Positions 1,987-29,858 of a DNA stretch of 41,259 nucleotides are shown one piece after another. The DNA lies in the NCBI GenBank assembly GCA_027081275.1, contig JALWKV010000095.1, forward strand, positions 1 to 41,259, in the 5' to 3' direction. The notes under the pieces are model-generated. The model was not told the origin of the DNA. It saw only the letters and a program-made list of their open reading frames with translations, and searched no databases. This DNA is from Gammaproteobacteria bacterium (lineage in GTDB: Bacteria > Pseudomonadota > Gammaproteobacteria > UWMA-0217). A program made the translations under genes and the position numbers. Every line of letters starts with the position of its first letter. Position 1 is the first letter of the stretch.

Positions 1987-4239
1987 ATGGACACATCAAG
2001 ACTTTTCTCTAAATCAGCGCTGGCTGTTGCCATTTCAGTCGGGTTGATGCTCGGGGGCTGCGGCAACAGCGACGATAATGAATACCAATCTGGAAATAAT
2101 GACTACGCGATACTCGAAGGCATAGCCGCAAAAGGCTTGATCATGAAAGGCCAGGTCGAAGCTTGGGAGCTCGACGCCACTGGCAGGCGATTGCGCCAGG
2201 TCGGTACCGCCGTTACCGATGACGCGGGCAAGTACCGGCTCCCATTGACCTCGGACTACGGTAAAGGCCCAATCCAACTCGTCGTCAAGCCACAATCTGA
2301 CACAAAGATGATCTGTGATGTGAAGGGCGATGCCTGTGAATACGGCAAGCCTGTTACCCTGCCAGATGACTTCACCTTGACGGCCATACTGCCACCATCG
2401 GCAACAGGCGGGACTATATCCGCCCAGATCACACCTCTGACTCACATGGCCGCCAAGCGCGTCTCCGCTAGTGGTAAATTTGATGCCGCCACTATCAAGG
2501 ACGTGCTCTCAGAAGTCAGCAATATCATCGGGGTAGACGTACTCGAGACACCACCAGCAGACATTACCAGAGCGACTGAAAATAGTAACGAAAACGCCAT
2601 TGCTTACGCCGCCTTTATGGCTGGCATGAGCGAGGTCGCACTCGAAAAGGCAGGCGGCCTCGACGAACTTACCGACGGAGTAGAACTGCTCGTAAAGGCG
2701 TTTGAAGACGGCAAGTTCGACGCAACAGACGAGATCTCCATAGAAGAGATCATCAGCGCCACACGCAAACAGGCGACAGCAGCGAACATCAGCGCTCCGA
2801 AGGTCGCTTATCAGCTTGCACAAGTAGAAGCAAAGATAATAGACGGCAGCTACGATCCAGAACCAACGCCGAGCACCACAACTGGAAGCGTTGAACTTGC
2901 CAAGGAACTGGTCGGCCAGGTGCGTGACTGGTATCACAGTCTCGAGGATTTCCAGGAACCGGCGGAAGCCTTCAAGGATGAAGTAGAACTCGCCGGAGAG
3001 GTGTTCAACCAAAATGCGCAGGCGCAGCTTGAGCTTTTCGGAGATGTTCTCGTCCAGATCGGAGATTTTCTCGAGAAAATCGAGGGCAGGAGCACGGTAT
3101 CCGGCCAACACTCTGTCAGCATCGTTGATCACGCCAACAACGATATAGGCGAAGTATCGGTCGATGTTAAGGCTACCGAAAACGATGGGGTTGACATTGT
3201 TGTCGGCCCATCGACATTGTCGGGCACCAATATCGCCTTTGCGATCGATACCGACATTCCGGCTTCGGCCTTGACGAACGAGGCTTACGATACCGATAAG
3301 CTCAATATCAAGGTTACCGGTAAAGTAGAAAACGATAAATTCCTGGTGCAACTAAATGAAATTTCCCTCGGGGGAAAACTGGCCGAATCCATACATGTCG
3401 CTCTTGGCGCCGATGACGGATCGCAAGACAAACCAGACGGAAAACTCGTTGGCGTCGCATTCTCGGGGGATGTCGTTCTGAAAGAAAAGACCAGAAACGT
3501 CGAATTTCAAGGGGAAGTGGCGGCCGATCTGGTCAAACTGACCAAGCCTTACAAGGATAGCGGAAATACGGTGAGCCTCAAGTATGCAATGGTAAAGGGC
3601 GAGGTATCGGCCAGCGATGGCCGGCGGCTGGATGTAAAGGCCGAACTCAATGTCAGCAACGCTGCAATATTCGACACCTTCGCTTTTCTCGATGACGAGC
3701 CTGATCTTTGGCTTTATGGTTATATGAATGGCAAGCTTACAAAAGACGAGGTTCGGAAGGAACTCGCCAAACAATACCCTGAAGCATTGGAGATCCAACA
3801 CGTTTACATTGATTCCGACCCCAATCGCTCCATGACATGGTATTCAGCCCTCATACGGCTGCCGGATATGGAGACAGCCGAATACTTCGGCAAGGCCACT
3901 CTGACGATCAGCACTGATCTCACACTGAAGGGACGGCCCGAAACAAGGCTGATCGCCTCCGGATCGAGGCGTGGGTTCAAGACGGCCACGGCGTTTATCT
4001 CGCTGATAGATCGCAGCCATGAACTCAATATCGACCTCAGGAAGGAAGGAGAGGCGGCCGGTACAGGAACGGTTAACTTTACCAACGACAAGGGCGCGAA
4101 AATGACCATTACGGTAACGGAAGAGCAAAAAACCGGGAAACTCATCGTCAATGGCACAAAAGTTGGGACGGTGGACTTCACCAGGCACGATGCAGTTATT
4201 ATTCGCTATGATGATGGCACGTTCGAAAGCCTGATCTAG
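1987..4239 (+). CDS. Large lipoprotein with N-terminal carboxypeptidase-regulatory-like domain, function unknown
   Basis: This is a secreted lipoprotein of about 750 residues with no assigned function. The N-terminus MDTSRLFSKSALAVAISVGL is followed by the lipobox LGGC, so the mature protein starts with a lipidated cysteine and a short acidic linker. Residues of about 45-110 (ILEGIAAKGLIMKGQVEAW, then TDDAGKYRLPL) resemble the carboxypeptidase-regulatory/Cna-B-like fold common in gammaproteobacterial surface lipoproteins. A TPLTHMAA segment and an alpha-helical part follow. The C-terminal half, from about residue 370, is rich in beta strands and repeatedly returns to a 'KATLTIS/GKVENDKF' style of strand. 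I preferred ATG 1987 over the in-frame TTG 1966; both leave a valid signal. GC content and codon use look lower than in flanking housekeeping genes. It is followed by a putative outer-membrane protein that may be a partner. Confidence 0.75.
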   Translation: MDTSRLFSKSALAVAISVGLMLGGCGNSDDNEYQSGNNDYAILEGIAAKGLIMKGQVEAWELDATGRRLRQVGTAVTDDAGKYRLPLTSDYGKGPIQLVVKPQSDTKMICDVKGDACEYGKPVTLPDDFTLTAILPPSATGGTISAQITPLTHMAAKRVSASGKFDAATIKDVLSEVSNIIGVDVLETPPADITRATENSNENAIAYAAFMAGMSEVALEKAGGLDELTDGVELLVKAFEDGKFDATDEISIEEIISATRKQATAANISAPKVAYQLAQVEAKIIDGSYDPEPTPSTTTGSVELAKELVGQVRDWYHSLEDFQEPAEAFKDEVELAGEVFNQNAQAQLELFGDVLVQIGDFLEKIEGRSTVSGQHSVSIVDHANNDIGEVSVDVKATENDGVDIVVGPSTLSGTNIAFAIDTDIPASALTNEAYDTDKLNIKVTGKVENDKFLVQLNEISLGGKLAESIHVALGADDGSQDKPDGKLVGVAFSGDVVLKEKTRNVEFQGEVAADLVKLTKPYKDSGNTVSLKYAMVKGEVSASDGRRLDVKAELNVSNAAIFDTFAFLDDEPDLWLYGYMNGKLTKDEVRKELAKQYPEALEIQHVYIDSDPNRSMTWYSALIRLPDMETAEYFGKATLTISTDLTLKGRPETRLIASGSRRGFKTATAFISLIDRSHELNIDLRKEGEAAGTGTVNFTNDKGAKMTITVTEEQKTGKLIVNGTKVGTVDFTRHDAVIIRYDDGTFESLI

Positions 4240-5335: not shown

Positions 5336-6388
5336 ATGAAGTCTCACCACCGAGGTCGCGGCGCGACGTTCAATCCGGACAACCGCTATAACGAGTATCG
5401 GTCCGAAGCGGTCGACGATGGCTGGGAGACGCCACCCGGTGACGCCCCGCGTACGACCGTCGAGGTCGAAAAGCCGCGCACGATCATCACACGCAACGAC
5501 TCGCCCGATGTTCCTTTCGATCGTTCGATCAATGCCTATCGCGGCTGCGAGCATGGCTGCATCTACTGTTTCGCCCGGCCGACGCACGCCTGGCTCGGGC
5601 TGTCTCCTGGGCTTGATTTCGAGACGAAACTCACGGCGAAACCCAACGCCGCCGAGCTGCTGCACAAGGCGCTGGAAAATCCCCGCTACACACCGGCGCC
5701 ACTGGCGCTGGGGACCAATACCGACCCCTACCAGCCCATCGAAAGACAATGGCGAATTATCCGCGAGGTTCTCGAAGTGCTGCACGCGCATCGGCATCCG
5801 GTGACGATCACCACGAAATCGGCGCTGATCGAACGGGATCTCGACATTCTTCAGGAGATGGCAAGCAAGCGGCTGGTGCGGGTACAGATATCCCTGACAA
5901 CGCTGGAAGCGGAATTGGCGCGCCGAATGGAGCCGCGCGCCACGTCGCCGCGGCGACGCCTTGAGGCGATAAAGACACTCACGGGCGCCGGCGTGCCCAC
6001 GTCCGTAATGGTCGCGCCCGTTGTTCCCGTACTGACCGATCCGGAACTGGAGACCATTCTCGCCGCATCGGCCGAAGCGGGTGCGGCGCAGGCGGGCTAT
6101 ATTCTGCTGCGCCTGCCGCTCGAGGTGGCGCCGTTGTTCGAGCAGTGGCTGCACACCCACTATCCGCTCAAGGCTGAGCACGTGTTGAGTCGAATTCGCG
6201 ACTGCCGCGACGGCGCGCTCAACAGCGCGAAGTTCGGCGAACGGATGTCGGGAAACGGAGAATATGCCGGTCTTATCGCGCAGCGATTCCGGCTGGCAAT
6301 CAGGCGGCTCGACTTGGAGGAAAAACTGCCGCCACTCGATTGTAGCAAGTTCAGACGGTCGGATCGGCAGTCCGACCTTTTCGATTGA
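5336..6388 (+). CDS. PA0069-family radical SAM protein
   Basis: This 350-residue radical SAM enzyme belongs to the PA0069/Rv2578c-type group, which is distantly related to spore photoproduct lyase and has no established substrate. Cysteines 71, 75 and 78 in YRGCEHGCIYCFARP form the CX3CX2C site that holds the 4Fe-4S cluster with S-adenosylmethionine. Nearby segments (NTDPYQPIER; ITTKSALIERD; VQISLTT) are typical of this family and form the strands of the partial TIM barrel. The length is normal. The start ATG 5336 lies 10 bases after the previous stop and has only a tight GTAGG in front. It converges on the DUF4144-like gene with a 2-base gap. Confidence 0.9.
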   Translation: MKSHHRGRGATFNPDNRYNEYRSEAVDDGWETPPGDAPRTTVEVEKPRTIITRNDSPDVPFDRSINAYRGCEHGCIYCFARPTHAWLGLSPGLDFETKLTAKPNAAELLHKALENPRYTPAPLALGTNTDPYQPIERQWRIIREVLEVLHAHRHPVTITTKSALIERDLDILQEMASKRLVRVQISLTTLEAELARRMEPRATSPRRRLEAIKTLTGAGVPTSVMVAPVVPVLTDPELETILAASAEAGAAQAGYILLRLPLEVAPLFEQWLHTHYPLKAEHVLSRIRDCRDGALNSAKFGERMSGNGEYAGLIAQRFRLAIRRLDLEEKLPPLDCSKFRRSDRQSDLFD

Positions 6389-9093: not shown

Positions 9094-9891
9094 CTAGCCT
9101 GGAATGACGCGATCCCCCACCCGCAGGATGCCCGCGTTGTCGGGGATGACGTTCTGCCCGAACATCACCTTGTTGCCCTGCTTGCGATAGGTCGCCAGCG
9201 TCCGCAGCGGCTCGTCGCCGCTCACTTCGCCGGTGTCGGGATCGACGGTGGTGACGACGCAACGCGAACAGGGCTTGACGATGCGAAAGCGCACGCCGGC
9301 GATCTCCATCTGCTTCCAGTCGTCCTCGGCATAGGGGTCGGCGCCGCTGACGACGATATTGGGGCGAAAGCGGCGCATCGGCAGCGGCTGATCGAGCCGG
9401 CTGTTGAGATCGTCCAGCGACGCCTGCCCGATCAGCAGGATCGGAAAGCCGTCGGAAAAGGCGGTCAGATCGCCGGCGCGGGCATAGTCGCGATCCACCT
9501 GCCGCCGGGCATCGCGCGGAAATCGCACCAGCCGCGCCGGCTCGCCCAGCACCTCGCTGAGCCACCAGTCGACATCGGGATCGCTGGTGATCGCCTCGAC
9601 CTCATCGTCCCAGACACGTACCGGAATCCGCTCGCCATCCGACGATTCGGTGACCGTGATCGGCGCCTTGCCAGCCAGCTCCAGCGTCAGCGCTTCGCCC
9701 TCCAGCGTTGGCGTGATCAGCGCCATGCGCGGGTGGCTGCGCTGGGTGATCATCCGACCCACTTCGTTGACGACCATCCAGCGCCGATCGTTGACGAGGC
9801 CCAGAGCATCGACGCGACTCGACTCCAGCGCGATGCCGGCCAGCGACTTGACCGGGTAGATGTAGAGGGCGGAAACGGAAACTGAGGACAT
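9094..9891 (-). CDS. MOSC domain-containing protein (YcbX-like, lacking ferredoxin domain)
   Basis: This 265-residue protein has an N-terminal MOSC beta-barrel (SALYIYPVKSLAGIALE, residues about 5-120) and a C-terminal MOSC domain. The latter holds the conserved cysteine in VKPCSRCVVTTVDPDTGE, the expected ligand site for molybdenum cofactor or a sulfurated group. The family includes mARC and YcbX, which reduce N-hydroxylated compounds. E. coli YcbX has an extra C-terminal 2Fe-2S domain that is absent here, so a separate electron donor would be needed. ATG 9891 gives the family-typical N-terminus; the open frame reaches 9963 but would overlap the divergent promoter region. It is co-oriented with the radical SAM gene and divergent from the oxidoreductase gene. 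Confidence 0.9.
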   Translation of the reverse strand: MSSVSVSALYIYPVKSLAGIALESSRVDALGLVNDRRWMVVNEVGRMITQRSHPRMALITPTLEGEALTLELAGKAPITVTESSDGERIPVRVWDDEVEAITSDPDVDWWLSEVLGEPARLVRFPRDARRQVDRDYARAGDLTAFSDGFPILLIGQASLDDLNSRLDQPLPMRRFRPNIVVSGADPYAEDDWKQMEIAGVRFRIVKPCSRCVVTTVDPDTGEVSGDEPLRTLATYRKQGNKVMFGQNVIPDNAGILRVGDRVIPG

Positions 9892-24714: not shown

Positions 24715-25458
24715 TTACGACTTTCTGCGCAACGGCGTAATCCACATCTGCCACAGGCTGGTGAAGAGCATGATCGCCGCCGCCACCGAGTAACCGATAC
24801 CGCCGATGATGGTGAGCCATGCAAAGGCCGGGCTGAGCTTGGTCAGCCACCAGGAGAGGATGTCGATGATCAGAAAGAAGAAAGGTGTCAGCACGATGAC
24901 AGCCTTCCAGAAACAGCCAATGCCTTCGGCCAGCGTGAAGATCGCGCCGACGAAGAAAAAGATGAATCCGATACCGAACAGGTGGATGTGCGACACGCGG
25001 GTCAGTGAAGCGAAAGAGGCGCCGTGATCGGACTCGGCCGTTGCCTTGATGTTTTCATACTTGGTGAAATCGCCCATCGGCGCGCCGGGGACGTGGCAGA
25101 TAGTGCAGTACTTGTCGACAATCGCCTTGATCTTGGCGTCGTATTGGTCCTTCGGTGCGCCGGCGCGGGCCCACTTGATCAGTTCCAGGCGCTCGGCATC
25201 CGGCGCATTCATCTTCATCGAGCCGTTCAGCTTGGCCTCGAGCTTGGTCCCCTCCTTGTTGCCATAGTAGCTGTAGACGATGTCATCGAGAGACAGGCCA
25301 ACCTTTCCGTCAGCCATGCCGTGCGTCATCATGATTTGAACGCCGGCCATCAGCAACCCGAAACCCACCGAGATGATGTAACCGGTGAACAGGATCTTGA
25401 ATGACAGCGGCAGTTTGGGCAGCGATACCCGATCGAGAATGTAATTCGTATCTTTCAT
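24715..25458 (-). CDS. Membrane-anchored c-type haem protein, function unknown
   Basis: This 247-residue protein has one N-terminal membrane segment (about 20-43), a soluble loop of about 110 residues, and three membrane segments at about 156-177, 184-203 and 212-236. The loop holds a single CxxCH haem-c site (Cys118, Cys121, His122; VDKYCTICHVPGAP), preceded by SLDDIVYSYYG. The next segment begins HIHLFGIGF, whose His157 and His159 could serve as axial or haem-b ligands. The haem site implies the loop is periplasmic. It resembles uncharacterised membrane cytochromes of beta- and gammaproteobacteria that are sometimes misannotated; I do not know a function. It is divergent from the DsrC-like gene, has its own terminator, and an electron-transfer role is inference. 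Confidence 0.75.
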   Translation of the reverse strand: MKDTNYILDRVSLPKLPLSFKILFTGYIISVGFGLLMAGVQIMMTHGMADGKVGLSLDDIVYSYYGNKEGTKLEAKLNGSMKMNAPDAERLELIKWARAGAPKDQYDAKIKAIVDKYCTICHVPGAPMGDFTKYENIKATAESDHGASFASLTRVSHIHLFGIGFIFFFVGAIFTLAEGIGCFWKAVIVLTPFFFLIIDILSWWLTKLSPAFAWLTIIGGIGYSVAAAIMLFTSLWQMWITPLRRKS

Positions 25459-25677
25459 GGACAGTTGGCCTCGAATCTTGTTGGGTATGGCGTATTAGAA
25501 ACCGCTGATAAAGCATGTGTCAAAGATAATTGTCAAAAAAAGCCGCTCGAAGGGTGCATTTCCGCTTGAAACCCCGGGTCAACGATGGGAATTGCAGCCG
25601 CAAACGGGGTATGTCTTGAAAACCGGCCACCCTCCCGCATAGTGGAAGAACACAAAACAGGAAAAAGGAGCAAGAAA
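25459..25677. other. Divergent promoter region between the haem protein and the DsrC-like gene
   Basis: This 219-base spacer separates two divergent starts. It contains AT-rich stretches (for example around 25515-25545) and a GAAAAAGGAG ribosome-binding site before ATG 25678. No clear operator palindrome stands out. Confidence 0.5.
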
Positions 25678-26208
25678 ATGAACGACGACAAGGTTCTGGG
25701 ACGCATCCTCAAGGCTGTCCGCCCGATCGAGCTGCCGCCGGCGGAGTACCCGCCCGCTTCCATCGTTCGCGATACCCCGCGCGACGATCTCGAGCAGCGC
25801 ATCCGCGCCAATGCCGATAAGGTCGGCATCGAGCTGACGGATGAACACTGGGAAGTCATCGACTTTCTGTTCGACTTTTACGTCAACTGCTGCGACAGCG
25901 ATACCGATCCCGGCTATGTCAAGCAGGAAACCTACTGGAAATATGTGGACTGCCTGTACGACGAGGCCTGCATGAAGGAGAAGGAGTCGCACCTCAAGCG
26001 GGAGTGCCCTTATGGCGAGCTGTCGCCGAAGGAATGCACCAGCGGCTATCGCGTCTACCGCATCCTGGAAAACAGGTTCAAGGACAAGGGCGGCGCAACG
26101 CATCTCTATCGGCTGTTTCCCTATGGGCCGATCTTCACGATCCATCTGCTGGCGCAATTGCCGCGGCTGCGCCACGACGCCAACCCGCACTTCGGCACCT
26201 CGTTCTGA
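25678..26208 (+). CDS. Cysteine-rich DsrC/TusE-related protein lacking the C-terminal cysteines
   Basis: This 176-residue cytoplasmic protein has a DsrC-like helix block (IELTDEHWEVIDFLFDFYVN, residues 51-70) and a DsrC-like end (LYRLFPYGPIFTIHLLAQLP, 143-162). Between them, where DsrC has a short YGIxPxxR-type segment, lies about 55 residues with six cysteines (71, 72, 92, 98, 110, 120). The C-terminus runs LRHDANPHFGTSF, so both cysteines of the DsrC swinging arm (one in the ACK region, one in the penultimate position) are absent. DsrC carries sulfur as a trisulfide for DsrAB; without those cysteines this protein cannot do the same, though the insert cysteines may bind metal or sulfur. AAAGGAG precedes ATG 25678. 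Its relationship to DsrC is by motif only. Confidence 0.7.
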   Translation: MNDDKVLGRILKAVRPIELPPAEYPPASIVRDTPRDDLEQRIRANADKVGIELTDEHWEVIDFLFDFYVNCCDSDTDPGYVKQETYWKYVDCLYDEACMKEKESHLKRECPYGELSPKECTSGYRVYRILENRFKDKGGATHLYRLFPYGPIFTIHLLAQLPRLRHDANPHFGTSF

Positions 26209-26249: not shown

Positions 26250-27131
26250 TTACCGCAGCACCCAGTAGGGCACCTGCTGCCGCTTCAGAAAATCCTCCGC
26301 ATTCTCTCCTTGCAGCGAGGCTAGGGTGGCGAGCATGCCCGCCTCGATCGTCGTCGGCGCAGCCACTGTTACCGAGCGTGGCGCGCCCGCTACCGGCCAG
26401 CCGCTGCGCGGGTCGAGAATGTGGCTGTAGCGACGACCGTCGCGCACCAGGTACCGTCGCGAATCACCGCTGGTCGCCATCGCGCCCTGGCGCAACTCGA
26501 TGCGCGCGGCGCCCGGCTGCTGCATGGTCGGATCCTCGACGCCGATCCGCCACGGCTCGCCACTTGCGCGTGGCCCACTGGCGCGCAGATCGCCGCCGAA
26601 GTTGAGCAGAAACGGCCACTGCGTCTCGGCGCGCAACAGCTTGAAACAGCGATCCACCGCGTATTCCTTGCCGATACCGCCAAAATCGACCTCCATGCCG
26701 TCAGGCATCGTCAGTATCGGCTTGCGCCATGAGAGCTTTTTCCAACCGACCCGCCGCAACACCTCGGCCACCGCCCGCGGCTCCGGAATCCGGTCACTGC
26801 CATCGAAGCGCCAGACCGCCCGCAACGCGCCGGAGGTGATGTCGAAACGCCCTTCGCTGAGGCGGTAACAGGTCTCGGCGAAGTCGAGCAGCAGCGCGGT
26901 CTCTTCATCGACCTCGGTCGGTCGGCCACGGGCGCTGTTGATGCGGTGGACGATGTTATCATATCGATAGCGGCTGAACTTCGACTCGATCCGCCAGGCT
27001 TCCTTCGCCACCCGCGCCAGGGCCCGCTCCATCCCGGCCCGGTCGCCACCGTCGAGCAGCAGTTCGCAGGGACTCGCCATGGCCGCAAAGCGCCCCACCC
27101 AGTGGCCTGCCGGTACGCGGCGGATTTCCAT
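26250..27131 (-). CDS. apbE: FAD:protein FMN transferase (ApbE)
   Basis: ApbE attaches FMN covalently to Thr or Ser in exported proteins. The 293-residue protein begins at ATG 27131 and has the expected blocks: AMASPCELLL, SKFSRYRYDNIVHRINSARG, FDITSGALRAVWRF, VDFGGIGKEYAVDR (magnesium-binding region), LLNFGGDLRASG and SHILDPRSGWPVAG. No classical signal peptide is visible at this start. The gene starts 10 bases after the DUF3570 gene, in one operon with a TlpA-like protein and a DUF4266 lipoprotein. No obvious flavinylation target is in the window, although the operon's own exported proteins are candidates. Confidence 0.95.
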   Translation of the reverse strand: MEIRRVPAGHWVGRFAAMASPCELLLDGGDRAGMERALARVAKEAWRIESKFSRYRYDNIVHRINSARGRPTEVDEETALLLDFAETCYRLSEGRFDITSGALRAVWRFDGSDRIPEPRAVAEVLRRVGWKKLSWRKPILTMPDGMEVDFGGIGKEYAVDRCFKLLRAETQWPFLLNFGGDLRASGPRASGEPWRIGVEDPTMQQPGAARIELRQGAMATSGDSRRYLVRDGRRYSHILDPRSGWPVAGAPRSVTVAAPTTIEAGMLATLASLQGENAEDFLKRQQVPYWVLR

Positions 27132-27141
27132 GGTCGCGCCG

Positions 27142-28428
27142 CTACCAGCGGAACCGGTAGCCGGCCTGGATGATGATGGCCTTCGTTTCCGGGAAGAGAT
27201 CGAGATTGCGCTGCAGGCCGACCGCATCGTCGGGATGATCGACGCCGTCCTGCCGATACAGCTCGACGCGCAGACTCCACTCGCTCCCGGCATCGATGCG
27301 ATGACCGTACTTGAGGCCAATCGTCGTCGCGTCGTACTCGGCAAGGCGTGGATCGGCGCTGGCGTATTCGGGCAGCGGCTCGCCGGCGATCAGGCTGTGG
27401 TGGTAGAAATCGGCTGCCGTCTGACTGTACCAACGCAGTCGCGGTTGCAGATAGTTCTCCCGATTCAGGTTCCAGCGATAGCGCAGATCGACGGTGTGGG
27501 AGATCACGCCCCAGTCATCGCTGTAGAAGCGATAGGCCGCCGTCACTACGTCACCACCGAGAAAGTGCTTCAGCTCGCCATAGAGGCTGTGCTTCTGGCG
27601 ACTGTCGGGGCGCTTCTCGTAGAGGTAGTCACGCGTCTTGCCACTGACGCCGTCGACCACGCTGAGTATCTTGAACGGGTCATTGAGATAGCCGCTCGCC
27701 AGGCTGAAACTGTAGTTGAGCTGGCCTATGGTGTCGTGGCCCAGCACCTGGGTGACGCCGAAAAGCAGGTCCAGCGTCAGCTTGTCGTCGATATCGGTGT
27801 CGCGCGGCTGCGGCTGATCCGGCGGAACCATGACGGCATAGGGGGTGGGAATGTCACCGACGGGATGGATGAAGTCGGCGGCGAGCGAGGCACCGGCGGA
27901 CAGTGTCGTGTTGCGGTGGTTGATGTCGCGACTGAGCTGGCCGTTTGCCGACAGCGAAGTGTAGTCGAACTCCCGCGAGATGCCGACGCCGAGCGTGCGG
28001 CGCTGCAGGCGACCGAGCGGCCTATCCCAGCTCAGCGAAACGGCCCCGCGGGTATCGCGAAAGGTGTCATCGAGCGGCGTTTCGCCCGGGTCGGCGGTAT
28101 AGACGCCCGTGCCCGAGGGTCGGGTAAAGGTCTGCACCTCATCGCTCGGCGTCGCCCCGTTCGGCGACGCACCGGTCAGCGCATCGACCACCACCTTGAG
28201 CTGGACGAATTCGTCCTCGCGTATCTCCTTGCGCGCCGTGGCCACCGGCTCGATTGCCGAGACGCGGCCATCCGCTTCCGAATAGAGCAGCACCGCGCTG
28301 TCGATCTCCCACGGCGTATCGGCCGCCTGGGCCGAGGCGCCCCCGCCCAGCAGCGAACAGGCGGCCAGCGCCAGCGCCTGGCGAATGCTCCCCTGCCCTT
28401 CCCCTTCCCGCTTCAGTTGCATCCGCAA
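27142..28428 (-). CDS. DUF3570 outer-membrane beta-barrel protein
   Basis: This 428-residue exported protein has signal peptide MRMQLKREGEGQGSIRQALA then LAACSLLGGGASAQA. The rest is alternating beta strands with aromatic girdles (DTIGQLNYSFSLASGYLND; TVDLRYRWNL; AIIIQAGYRFRW), and it ends in RW as outer-membrane barrels often do. The mature N-terminus DTPWEIDSAVLLYSEADGRV is characteristic of DUF3570. Its function is unknown. Its start overlaps the DUF4266 gene by 16 bases and apbE begins 10 bases downstream. Confidence 0.88.
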   Translation of the reverse strand: MRMQLKREGEGQGSIRQALALAACSLLGGGASAQAADTPWEIDSAVLLYSEADGRVSAIEPVATARKEIREDEFVQLKVVVDALTGASPNGATPSDEVQTFTRPSGTGVYTADPGETPLDDTFRDTRGAVSLSWDRPLGRLQRRTLGVGISREFDYTSLSANGQLSRDINHRNTTLSAGASLAADFIHPVGDIPTPYAVMVPPDQPQPRDTDIDDKLTLDLLFGVTQVLGHDTIGQLNYSFSLASGYLNDPFKILSVVDGVSGKTRDYLYEKRPDSRQKHSLYGELKHFLGGDVVTAAYRFYSDDWGVISHTVDLRYRWNLNRENYLQPRLRWYSQTAADFYHHSLIAGEPLPEYASADPRLAEYDATTIGLKYGHRIDAGSEWSLRVELYRQDGVDHPDDAVGLQRNLDLFPETKAIIIQAGYRFRW

Positions 28429-28628
28429 CCTCCGCCGGCAAAACCGCGGCCACCGCTGGAGGCCTCCTTGCTGAAATAGATGTGATCGTCATAGGCGGCA
28501 TCGAGCGATTCGGCGGCAAGGGCCATGTCCGGCCGCGCCAGCACGCCACGCTGCCAGGGCTTGACCCCCAGGCTGGAGCAGCCGGAAACGACGATCAGCA
28601 TCAGCCCGAGTGCTGTCCAGCGTCTCAT
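28413..28628 (-). CDS. DUF4266 small lipoprotein with Gly/Cys tail
   Basis: This 71-residue lipoprotein has the signal MRRWTALGLMLIVVSG followed by lipobox SGC. The mature part KPWQRGVLARPDMALAAE with DDHIYFSKEASSGGRGFAGG and ends GGGCGCN, a glycine-rich tail with two cysteines, typical of DUF4266. The function is unknown; the free cysteines next to a TlpA-type thioredoxin suggest a redox or metal-binding tail, which is inference. ATG 28628 overlaps the TlpA stop (ATGA), and the stop overlaps the DUF3570 start by 16 bases. Confidence 0.9.
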   Translation of the reverse strand: MRRWTALGLMLIVVSGCSSLGVKPWQRGVLARPDMALAAESLDAAYDDHIYFSKEASSGGRGFAGGGCGCN

Positions 28629-29107
28629 TTGCCGTCACCCCCCTTTGGCAGCAAATCGACGATCGCCGCCTCGTACTCCGCCTTCCTGCTCTCGCGAAAA
28701 CCGATATGGCGGCCGGCCTGCCGACCATCGGGCGCGAACAGCAACGCCGTCGGCATGCCCTCGATACCATAGCGTTCGGCCAGCACGCCCTCGGGATCGC
28801 GAACGATGGTAAACGACACCGGGTAGCTGCGCAGGAAGCGGTCGGCATCGGCCTGATCCTCGTCGAGATTGACGGCGATGATCTGCAGGCCGCGCTGCCC
28901 GTGCTTGCGCTGCATCTGCTCCATCCACGGAAAGGACTTCTTGCAGGGCAGGCACCACGAGGCCCAGAAATCGACGTAGACCACCTTGCCGCGGTATTGC
29001 GACAGATCAAGAGTGGCCGCGGCCGTCGCCACGTAAGGGAGGGTGGACAACAACCCCAGCAGGATAATGAGCGGTAACAGAATACGGGTCATGGACGGAA
29101 TGGGCAT
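28625..29107 (-). CDS. TlpA-like periplasmic thioredoxin-fold protein
   Basis: This protein of about 160 residues has a signal peptide (MTRILLPLIILLGLLSTLPY) and a thioredoxin fold. The redox site is Cys52-Leu-Pro-Cys55 in FWASWCLPCKKSF, and the cis-proline loop EGMPTALLFAPDG follows. It probably acts as a periplasmic disulfide reductant, as TlpA and ResA do. The start ATG 29107 is chosen; ATG 29092 is also plausible and neither has a clear Shine-Dalgarno. It is the first gene of the four-gene DUF4266-DUF3570-apbE operon. Confidence 0.9.
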   Translation of the reverse strand: MPIPSMTRILLPLIILLGLLSTLPYVATAAATLDLSQYRGKVVYVDFWASWCLPCKKSFPWMEQMQRKHGQRGLQIIAVNLDEDQADADRFLRSYPVSFTIVRDPEGVLAERYGIEGMPTALLFAPDGRQAGRHIGFRESRKAEYEAAIVDLLPKGGDGK

Positions 29108-29206
29108 GGTTGAAACGCTGACGATTATCACTCCAGAACGATGGAGAACGTCAGTGTAGGCGTCACGGCGCTTGAAAGTGACGCATAATCCGTGATCCAA
29201 TAAAAA

Positions 29207-29226
29207 TATACTGACCGGTCTAAATA
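29207..29226. promoter_or_regulatory. Candidate TetR operator at the regulator's own start
   Basis: TATACTGACCGGTCTAAATA has a GACCGGTC core with TAT/ATA flanks. It directly abuts the ATG at 29226 and its left end (TATACT) resembles a -10 box, so binding would block the tetR promoter. Its half-site matches the operator at 29905. Confidence 0.55.
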
Positions 29227-29858
29227 TGTCGCGAGCCACCGCAAAAGCCGAAGCCACCCGCCATCGCATTCTCGAAGCGGCCGATCGGCTGTTCTATCGC
29301 CACGGATATCACGCCACCGGGCTGGACGCAATCATCCGCGAGGCCGGCGTCACCAAGGGGAATTTCTACTATTACTTCAAGAGCAAGGAAGCGCTCGCCC
29401 TTGCCGTGCTCGAATGGCATTTCGAACTCACCAGCCGGGAAACGGCAACCCTGCTCGGCGAGCGCAGGCTCGGCCCACTGGACTCGTTGTTCGCCATGCT
29501 CGAAGGAATCGCCGGACGACAGCACGCCCAGGCCGACGAAGGCGCCATCTGTGGCTGCCTGTTCGGCAACTTCACGCTGGAGATGAGCGCGGACAGCGAC
29601 CCCGTCAGGCGCAAGGTCGCCACCATCTTCGAGCGCTATCGCAAGACCATCGCCGCCATGCTGCACCGGGCGCAGAAGGCCGGCGAAGTCCCAATGAGTC
29701 TCGATCCGGACAGCGAGGCCCATGTCATCCTCAGCCTGATCGAGGGCGCGATTCTGCTCGACAAGTCGAAACAGCGGATCGAGGCACTGCCGAAGGCTAT
29801 CGATTTTCTGCGCCGCACATTGCCAGCCGCGGCCAAACCGACTCAACCGGAGCACTGA
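29226..29858 (+). CDS. TetR/AcrR-family transcriptional regulator
   Basis: This 210-residue DNA-binding protein has the N-terminal TetR helix-turn-helix (residues about 10-56, LEAADRLFYRHGYHATGLDA then VTKGNFYYYFKSKEALA) and a longer ligand-binding C-terminal half with GAICGCLFGNFTLEMSA. Such regulators repress genes until an effector binds. The start ATG 29226 lies at the edge of a palindrome, so the message may be leaderless. A related palindrome precedes the downstream AhpD-like gene, which is the likely target. The effector is unknown. Confidence 0.92.
   Translation: MSRATAKAEATRHRILEAADRLFYRHGYHATGLDAIIREAGVTKGNFYYYFKSKEALALAVLEWHFELTSRETATLLGERRLGPLDSLFAMLEGIAGRQHAQADEGAICGCLFGNFTLEMSADSDPVRRKVATIFERYRKTIAAMLHRAQKAGEVPMSLDPDSEAHVILSLIEGAILLDKSKQRIEALPKAIDFLRRTLPAAAKPTQPEH

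Follow-up and report, generated by a model that had tools for sequence, protein, structure and literature searches.

The gene at positions 25678-26208 of the window (the whole stretch of DNA analyzed here, 41,259 nucleotides in length) encodes a protein that, judging from profile comparisons, is a rare member of the DsrC family, with a cysteine-containing loop inserted in its middle and a C-terminal arm that is free of cysteine. In related genomes, the homologous genes lie in a stress-gene context, which points to stress physiology rather than sulfur relay. Instead of carrying sulfur, the protein probably acts in the stress response and has a thiol or metal site. The reading that we favor, and to which we give about an even chance, is that this Cys-free-arm protein belongs to a stress regulon, carries a metal-binding or redox-switch loop, and has left the sulfur relay.

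Family membership and architecture

Translation of the forward strand matched exactly the ORF, the motifs, and the six cysteine positions (71, 72, 92, 98, 110, and 120) that an earlier note had read from this DNA. No cysteine follows residue 120, leaving the last 56 residues Cys-free, and the claim of a C-terminal arm without cysteines therefore holds; the protein ends in ..HFGTSF, and the penultimate cysteine of the TusE type is absent. We regard the ORF as real because an AGGAG sequence precedes its ATG, it is intact in seven genomes, and its dN/dS values are low. The features of the gene and protein were as follows.

25615..25640, + strand: sigma-32-like promoter match CTTGAA-N14-CCGCAT, agreeing at 11/12 consensus positions and beginning 63 bp upstream of the ATG
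25666..25670, + strand: ribosome-binding site AGGAG, 7 nt upstream of the ATG, read off the sequence
25678..26208, + strand: CDS of 176 aa for a DsrC-family protein with a five-cysteine loop and a Cys-free C-terminal arm (translation, profile matches, ORF kept in seven genomes)
25804..25884, + strand: N-terminal DsrC segment, residues 43-69, ..GIELTDEHWEVIDFLFDFYV (best Pfam stretch, 43-69 corresponding to profile positions 27-53; helix confidently modeled)
25882..26043, + strand: insert, about residues 69-122, with Cys 71/72/92/98/110 (invariant in 7/7) and 120 (2/7) (alignment; low model confidence)
26044..26172, + strand: C-terminal DsrC segment, residues 123-165, ..KGGATHLYRLFPYGPIFTIHLLAQLPRL (second DsrC stretch; high model confidence)
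26173..26205, + strand: C-terminal arm HDANPHFGTSF, without cysteine (aligned with many short Cys-free DsrC paralogues, -D.SFGS)

The protein matched the Pfam DsrC profile (PF04358) in two stretches with 32.9 bits, above the cut-off of 24.9, supporting the family membership that had been proposed from motifs. The match to TIGR03342 (TusE/DsrC/DsvC sulfur relay protein; 37.4 bits) lay under the NCBIfam cut-off of 53.5, and the similarity to NF008562 (TusE) was weak, its 38 bits falling well short of the equivalog cut-off, 191 bits. A profile built from the seven insert homologues alone matched A. vinosum DsrC (1yx3) at 1.8e-8. In two AlphaFold2 models (mean pLDDT 71.6 and 77.6), the flanking helices were confidently placed and the insert was poorly resolved (mean pLDDT 49-62 for residues 71-110). 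With both models, 1yx3 was the top Foldseek match (probability 1.00), with low TM (0.34/0.51) and E-values of 0.04-0.09, so that the profile comparison is the stronger family evidence. The earlier proposal of a DsrC fold flanking a cysteine loop was thus borne out for the flanks, which are DsrC-like, whereas the fold match remained above an E-value of 0.001 and the loop itself was modeled with low confidence. The alignment further indicated that the middle of the protein is not replaced, as had been described; the core is retained, and two DsrC helices have the extra segment inserted between them.

Relation to DsrC and TusE in the host

The window lies on contig C95; the draft genome, of 3.19 Mb, contains seven DsrC-family genes, namely the window gene and six others. 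The canonical two-cysteine DsrC is encoded on contig C111, in an operon with dsrA, dsrB, dsrE, dsrF, and dsrK, indicating that the host is a Dsr-type sulfur oxidizer and that the window protein is not its working DsrC. A functional DsrC needs two arm cysteines, Cys100 and Cys111 in A. vinosum (PMC3397948). The window protein has no arm cysteines and is not encoded with dsrAB/dsrEFH (C95 versus C111). It shares with A. vinosum DsrC its family by profile, the flanking helices, and the LFPYGP core motif, and has it as its best fold match; it differs in the missing arm cysteines, the 54-residue insert, and its location outside the dsr operon. TusE, which relays sulfur for tRNA 2-thiouridine, showed weak profile similarity; its penultimate cysteine is missing from the window protein.

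Homologues and conservation of the insert cysteines

We found seven full-length homologues including the window copy, all with the insert and at 61-70% identity to the window protein; this number is a lower bound, as one contig scan relied on exact peptide patterns and the class and phylum searches each covered a sample of a few hundred genomes, the second class sample overlapping the first to a large extent. The relatives' genes are simple ORF calls. Of the five genomes in the window's order, four carried a homologue, as did both members of another order and 1/20 genomes of a third family, that of the complete genome G083; the carriers outside the window's order belong to two other gammaproteobacterial families. 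Searches of the orders and families around G083 and G126 yielded no further members, and the phylum sample (398 genomes) contained the insert protein in the window genome only.

Cys71, 72, 92, 98, and 110, which include an adjacent CC pair, were invariant in all seven sequences, whereas Cys120 was kept in two and replaced by Ala in the rest. The idea that all six insert cysteines are conserved thus stands for five of them. Cysteines were enriched among the invariant insert positions (5/6 versus 11/48 other residues; Fisher p = 0.007, indicative only, as the seven sequences are related). The dN/dS value was 0.045 for the closest pair (G240/G126) and 0.045-0.35 where computable, the other pairs being near or past synonymous saturation. 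From these ratios, the insert-form gene appears to be under purifying selection.

The patchy occurrence of the gene, which is found in a single genome of G083's family and is absent from G002, a member of the window's own genus, might suggest a decaying paralogue or a misassembled chimera. This explanation is vanishingly improbable: seven assemblies contain seven intact ORFs of one architecture, and these, together with the dN/dS range and the invariant cysteines, refute it as stated.

A phage or plasmid origin was also rejected, as searches of viral contigs, phages, and plasmids gave no relative of the window protein. The viral dsrC_1 group of SUP05 phages provides a precedent for DsrC homologues missing an arm cysteine; it differs in being phage-borne, with no insert reported (PMC4164917).

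Origin of the loop and the Cys-free arm

In alignments and trees, the window protein clustered with DsrC paralogues having Cys-free arms. These share with it a cysteine-free arm of equal length and kind, the KGG..YLY.LFP core, and their occurrence in Gammaproteobacteria; unlike them, the window protein, as well as all its homologues, carries a 54-residue insert. We take these paralogues to be the proteins called RspA in the literature. A Cys-free arm of this kind, with the ending -D.SFG-, is found in many short paralogues, and loss of the arm cysteines is therefore, contrary to the reading in the earlier note, not special to the window protein.

When 85 DsrC-family proteins were placed in a tree, all insert forms fell into one group (98/98), which joined three short CxxC proteins at 95/90 and then short Cys-free forms. 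Removing the loop columns left the insert group at 92/96 and its join with the CxxC short forms at 94/87; the deep forks are uncertain because the alignment is short (~118 columns). The CxxC of the three short relatives sits exactly at the insert start (..VYESCPECRHA.., ..FYEHCDDCENA..). Among the Cys-free paralogues examined, only three (L104, L105, and L077) had a CxxC in the loop. Short DsrC-family proteins with a loop CxxC and no arm cysteines lie at L109 3683-4027, L110 4148-4468, and L111 8162-8530; no description of such proteins was found in the searchable literature.

Since the nearest short CxxC relatives also lack arm cysteines, the Cys-free arm is older and ordinary, and the novelty, as judged from the alignment and tree, would be the expanded loop. 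On the same comparison, the most economical history is that the arm cysteines were lost, a CxxC was gained in the loop, and the loop then grew and acquired more cysteines. Contrary to what had been suggested, the cysteines of the loop do not have to be catalytic thiols that moved there, because short relatives already devoid of arm cysteines carry the loop CxxC.

Gene neighborhoods

The window gene stands alone: the gene for a CxxCH membrane protein is divergent from it, and an ApbE/DUF3570/thioredoxin-like cluster is convergent with it. The membrane protein (24715-25458, - strand) has a CxxCH haem-type motif and 86% identical copies in G002 and G004, and it matched no Pfam or NCBIfam family. 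The convergent cluster (26250-29269, - strand) encodes ApbE (FMN transferase), DUF3570, small lipoprotein-like, and thioredoxin-like proteins. The co-occurrence of the DsrC-like gene with the CxxCH protein that the earlier note had envisaged was contradicted: the latter is present in G002, which has no DsrC-like gene, lies on another contig in G004, and is absent from the gene-bearing G001 and G003. A partnership of the two was rejected on this presence/absence pattern across five genomes.

Neighbor genes vary from lineage to lineage. In G001, a same-strand DnaK gene lies 22 bp downstream, accompanied by a same-strand YfdX gene, while G240 and G126 have a same-strand gene for a ribosome-hibernation-type S30AE protein directly downstream. 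Same-strand genes for DUF1931 and a CMD-family protein flank the G003 copy, one on each side; G004 has a PsiE gene nearby on the opposite strand, and in G083 an Hsp20 gene is found ~4 kb from the DsrC-like gene. S30AE homologues occur in all seven insert-bearing genomes; as G002 has one too, and G207 a weak one, the S30AE link is not specific. At none of the seven loci, which include several short contigs, was a dsr or tus gene recognized beside the DsrC-like gene.

These neighborhoods bear on a sulfur-relay variant, the view taken by the earlier note, in which DsrC/TusE thiol chemistry has shifted to the internal loop, whose cysteines carry the persulfide. A Dsr-type sulfur-oxidizing host with seven DsrC-family genes and five invariant cysteines including a CC pair would be consistent with such a protein. 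However, the penultimate arm cysteine on which the DsrC-DsrE interaction of A. vinosum depends is missing here (PMC3397948), and this, together with the lack of recognizable dsr or tus neighbors, disfavors a relay role; the Cys-free arms of the closest short relatives and the stress-gene context also argue against it. We therefore consider a relay variant improbable.

A palindrome upstream of stress genes

The palindrome TGTCAY-N4-RTGACA was present upstream of four of the seven homologues (three of them have it 72-85 bp before the start, and G004 has it at about 330-340 bp) and was not found before the copies of the window genome, G003, and G083. A scan of eight gammaproteobacterial genomes gave 37 sites versus 0 for the reversed control, and 27 of 31 examined sites were intergenic, versus an expectation of 21% noncoding sequence. 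They included the following.

L157: palindrome sites at 1457, 6340, and 9347
L158: palindrome sites at 2414, 2502, and 6553
L159: palindrome sites at 3130 and 3303
L160: palindrome sites at 196 and 826
L166: palindrome site at 3312
L171: palindrome site at 3503, and others elsewhere

Many sites lay 55-65 bp before genes for DUF308/HdeD-like, SpoIIAA-Usp, class I aldolase, P-type ATPase, and arm-Cys-free DsrC paralogue proteins, and others lay near HSP70/ClpB, HSP20, and FtsH. Pfam confirmed HSP70, HSP20, FtsH, Usp, DUF308, one aldolase, and one ATPase; the names ClpB, P-type ATPase (L158), and aldolase for some of the genes are presumptive, being our reading of the sequence. The TGTCA-N6-TGACA spacing resembles that of CRP/FNR-type regulator sites, and in G004 two CRP-type regulator genes, at L157 1836-2585 and L158 5768-6511, lie close to palindrome sites. 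On this distribution, the palindrome looks like the mark of a candidate undescribed stress regulon in the eight genomes. Literature searches on a TGTCA palindrome regulon, DsrC and stress, DsrC and DNA binding, and Cys-lacking DsrC paralogues returned nothing direct.

A second DsrC-family paralogue was observed ~55-90 bp behind the palindrome in two genomes; the window-genome copy has no C-terminal cysteines.

G000:C136 5490-5828, - strand: second DsrC paralogue, palindrome site at 5928
L157 9418-9795, + strand: second DsrC paralogue, palindrome site at 9347

Several genes near the homologues and palindrome sites (Hsp20, YfdX, HdeD-like, FtsH, and PsiE) overlap with those of the transmissible locus of stress tolerance (PMC8290217); that locus is not known to include a DsrC-family gene, and in our genomes the genes are dispersed over contigs rather than collected in one island.

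The sigma-32-like match before the window copy had a score reached by 0.3% of shuffles, the background of such matches being 0.006 per 300 nt of one strand; it was sought only after the contexts had been seen, which makes it weaker evidence. Because the palindrome is absent there, the stress link of the window copy rests on its relatives and this one promoter match, from which we infer its stress induction.

A possible role in stress protection

In another explanation, the cysteines do no more than stabilize the insert, through a zinc knuckle or through disulfides. As with other Cys-free paralogues, the protein would then be an adaptor with the DsrC fold, or a regulator that binds DNA or RNA, and its cysteines would be inert. 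In favor of this explanation, numerous paralogues persist that lack cysteines in both arm and loop, and another arm-Cys-free paralogue stands behind the same palindrome in two genomes; however, it does not by itself explain the thiols in the same loop of the CxxC relatives, and we regard it as rather doubtful.

In the stress-protein reading that we favor, two DsrC helices of the ancestor were probably linked by a short CxxC loop, which would have grown in the insert clade to ~54 residues with five invariant cysteines. The protein would have left its sulfur-relay role for the protein-quality-control or general stress response of some sulfur-oxidizing Gammaproteobacteria. The loop cysteines may be ligands of a metal (zinc or Fe-S), either structural or redox-labile, or may pair in switchable disulfides, and the DsrC-fold body, a protein-binding module in known relatives, may act as a stress-responsive adaptor or sensor. 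More tentatively, these proteins could constitute a new DsrC clade in which a sulfur-carrier fold now serves the response to heat and oxidative stress as a metal-bound thiol sensor or adaptor, its CxxC loop having grown to hold five invariant cysteines, and which in relatives belongs, with another arm-Cys-free DsrC paralogue, to an undescribed palindrome-defined stress regulon; this version is possible, and we hold it with some reserve.

Many DsrC-family paralogues of sulfur oxidizers cannot perform DsrC chemistry, and we know of no firmly assigned role for them. Two such lineages, one with a five-cysteine loop, tied to a stress regulon would give them a testable role in stress protection rather than sulfur transfer. 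Inferences of sulfur metabolism from metagenomes should not count such genes as dsrC/tusE.
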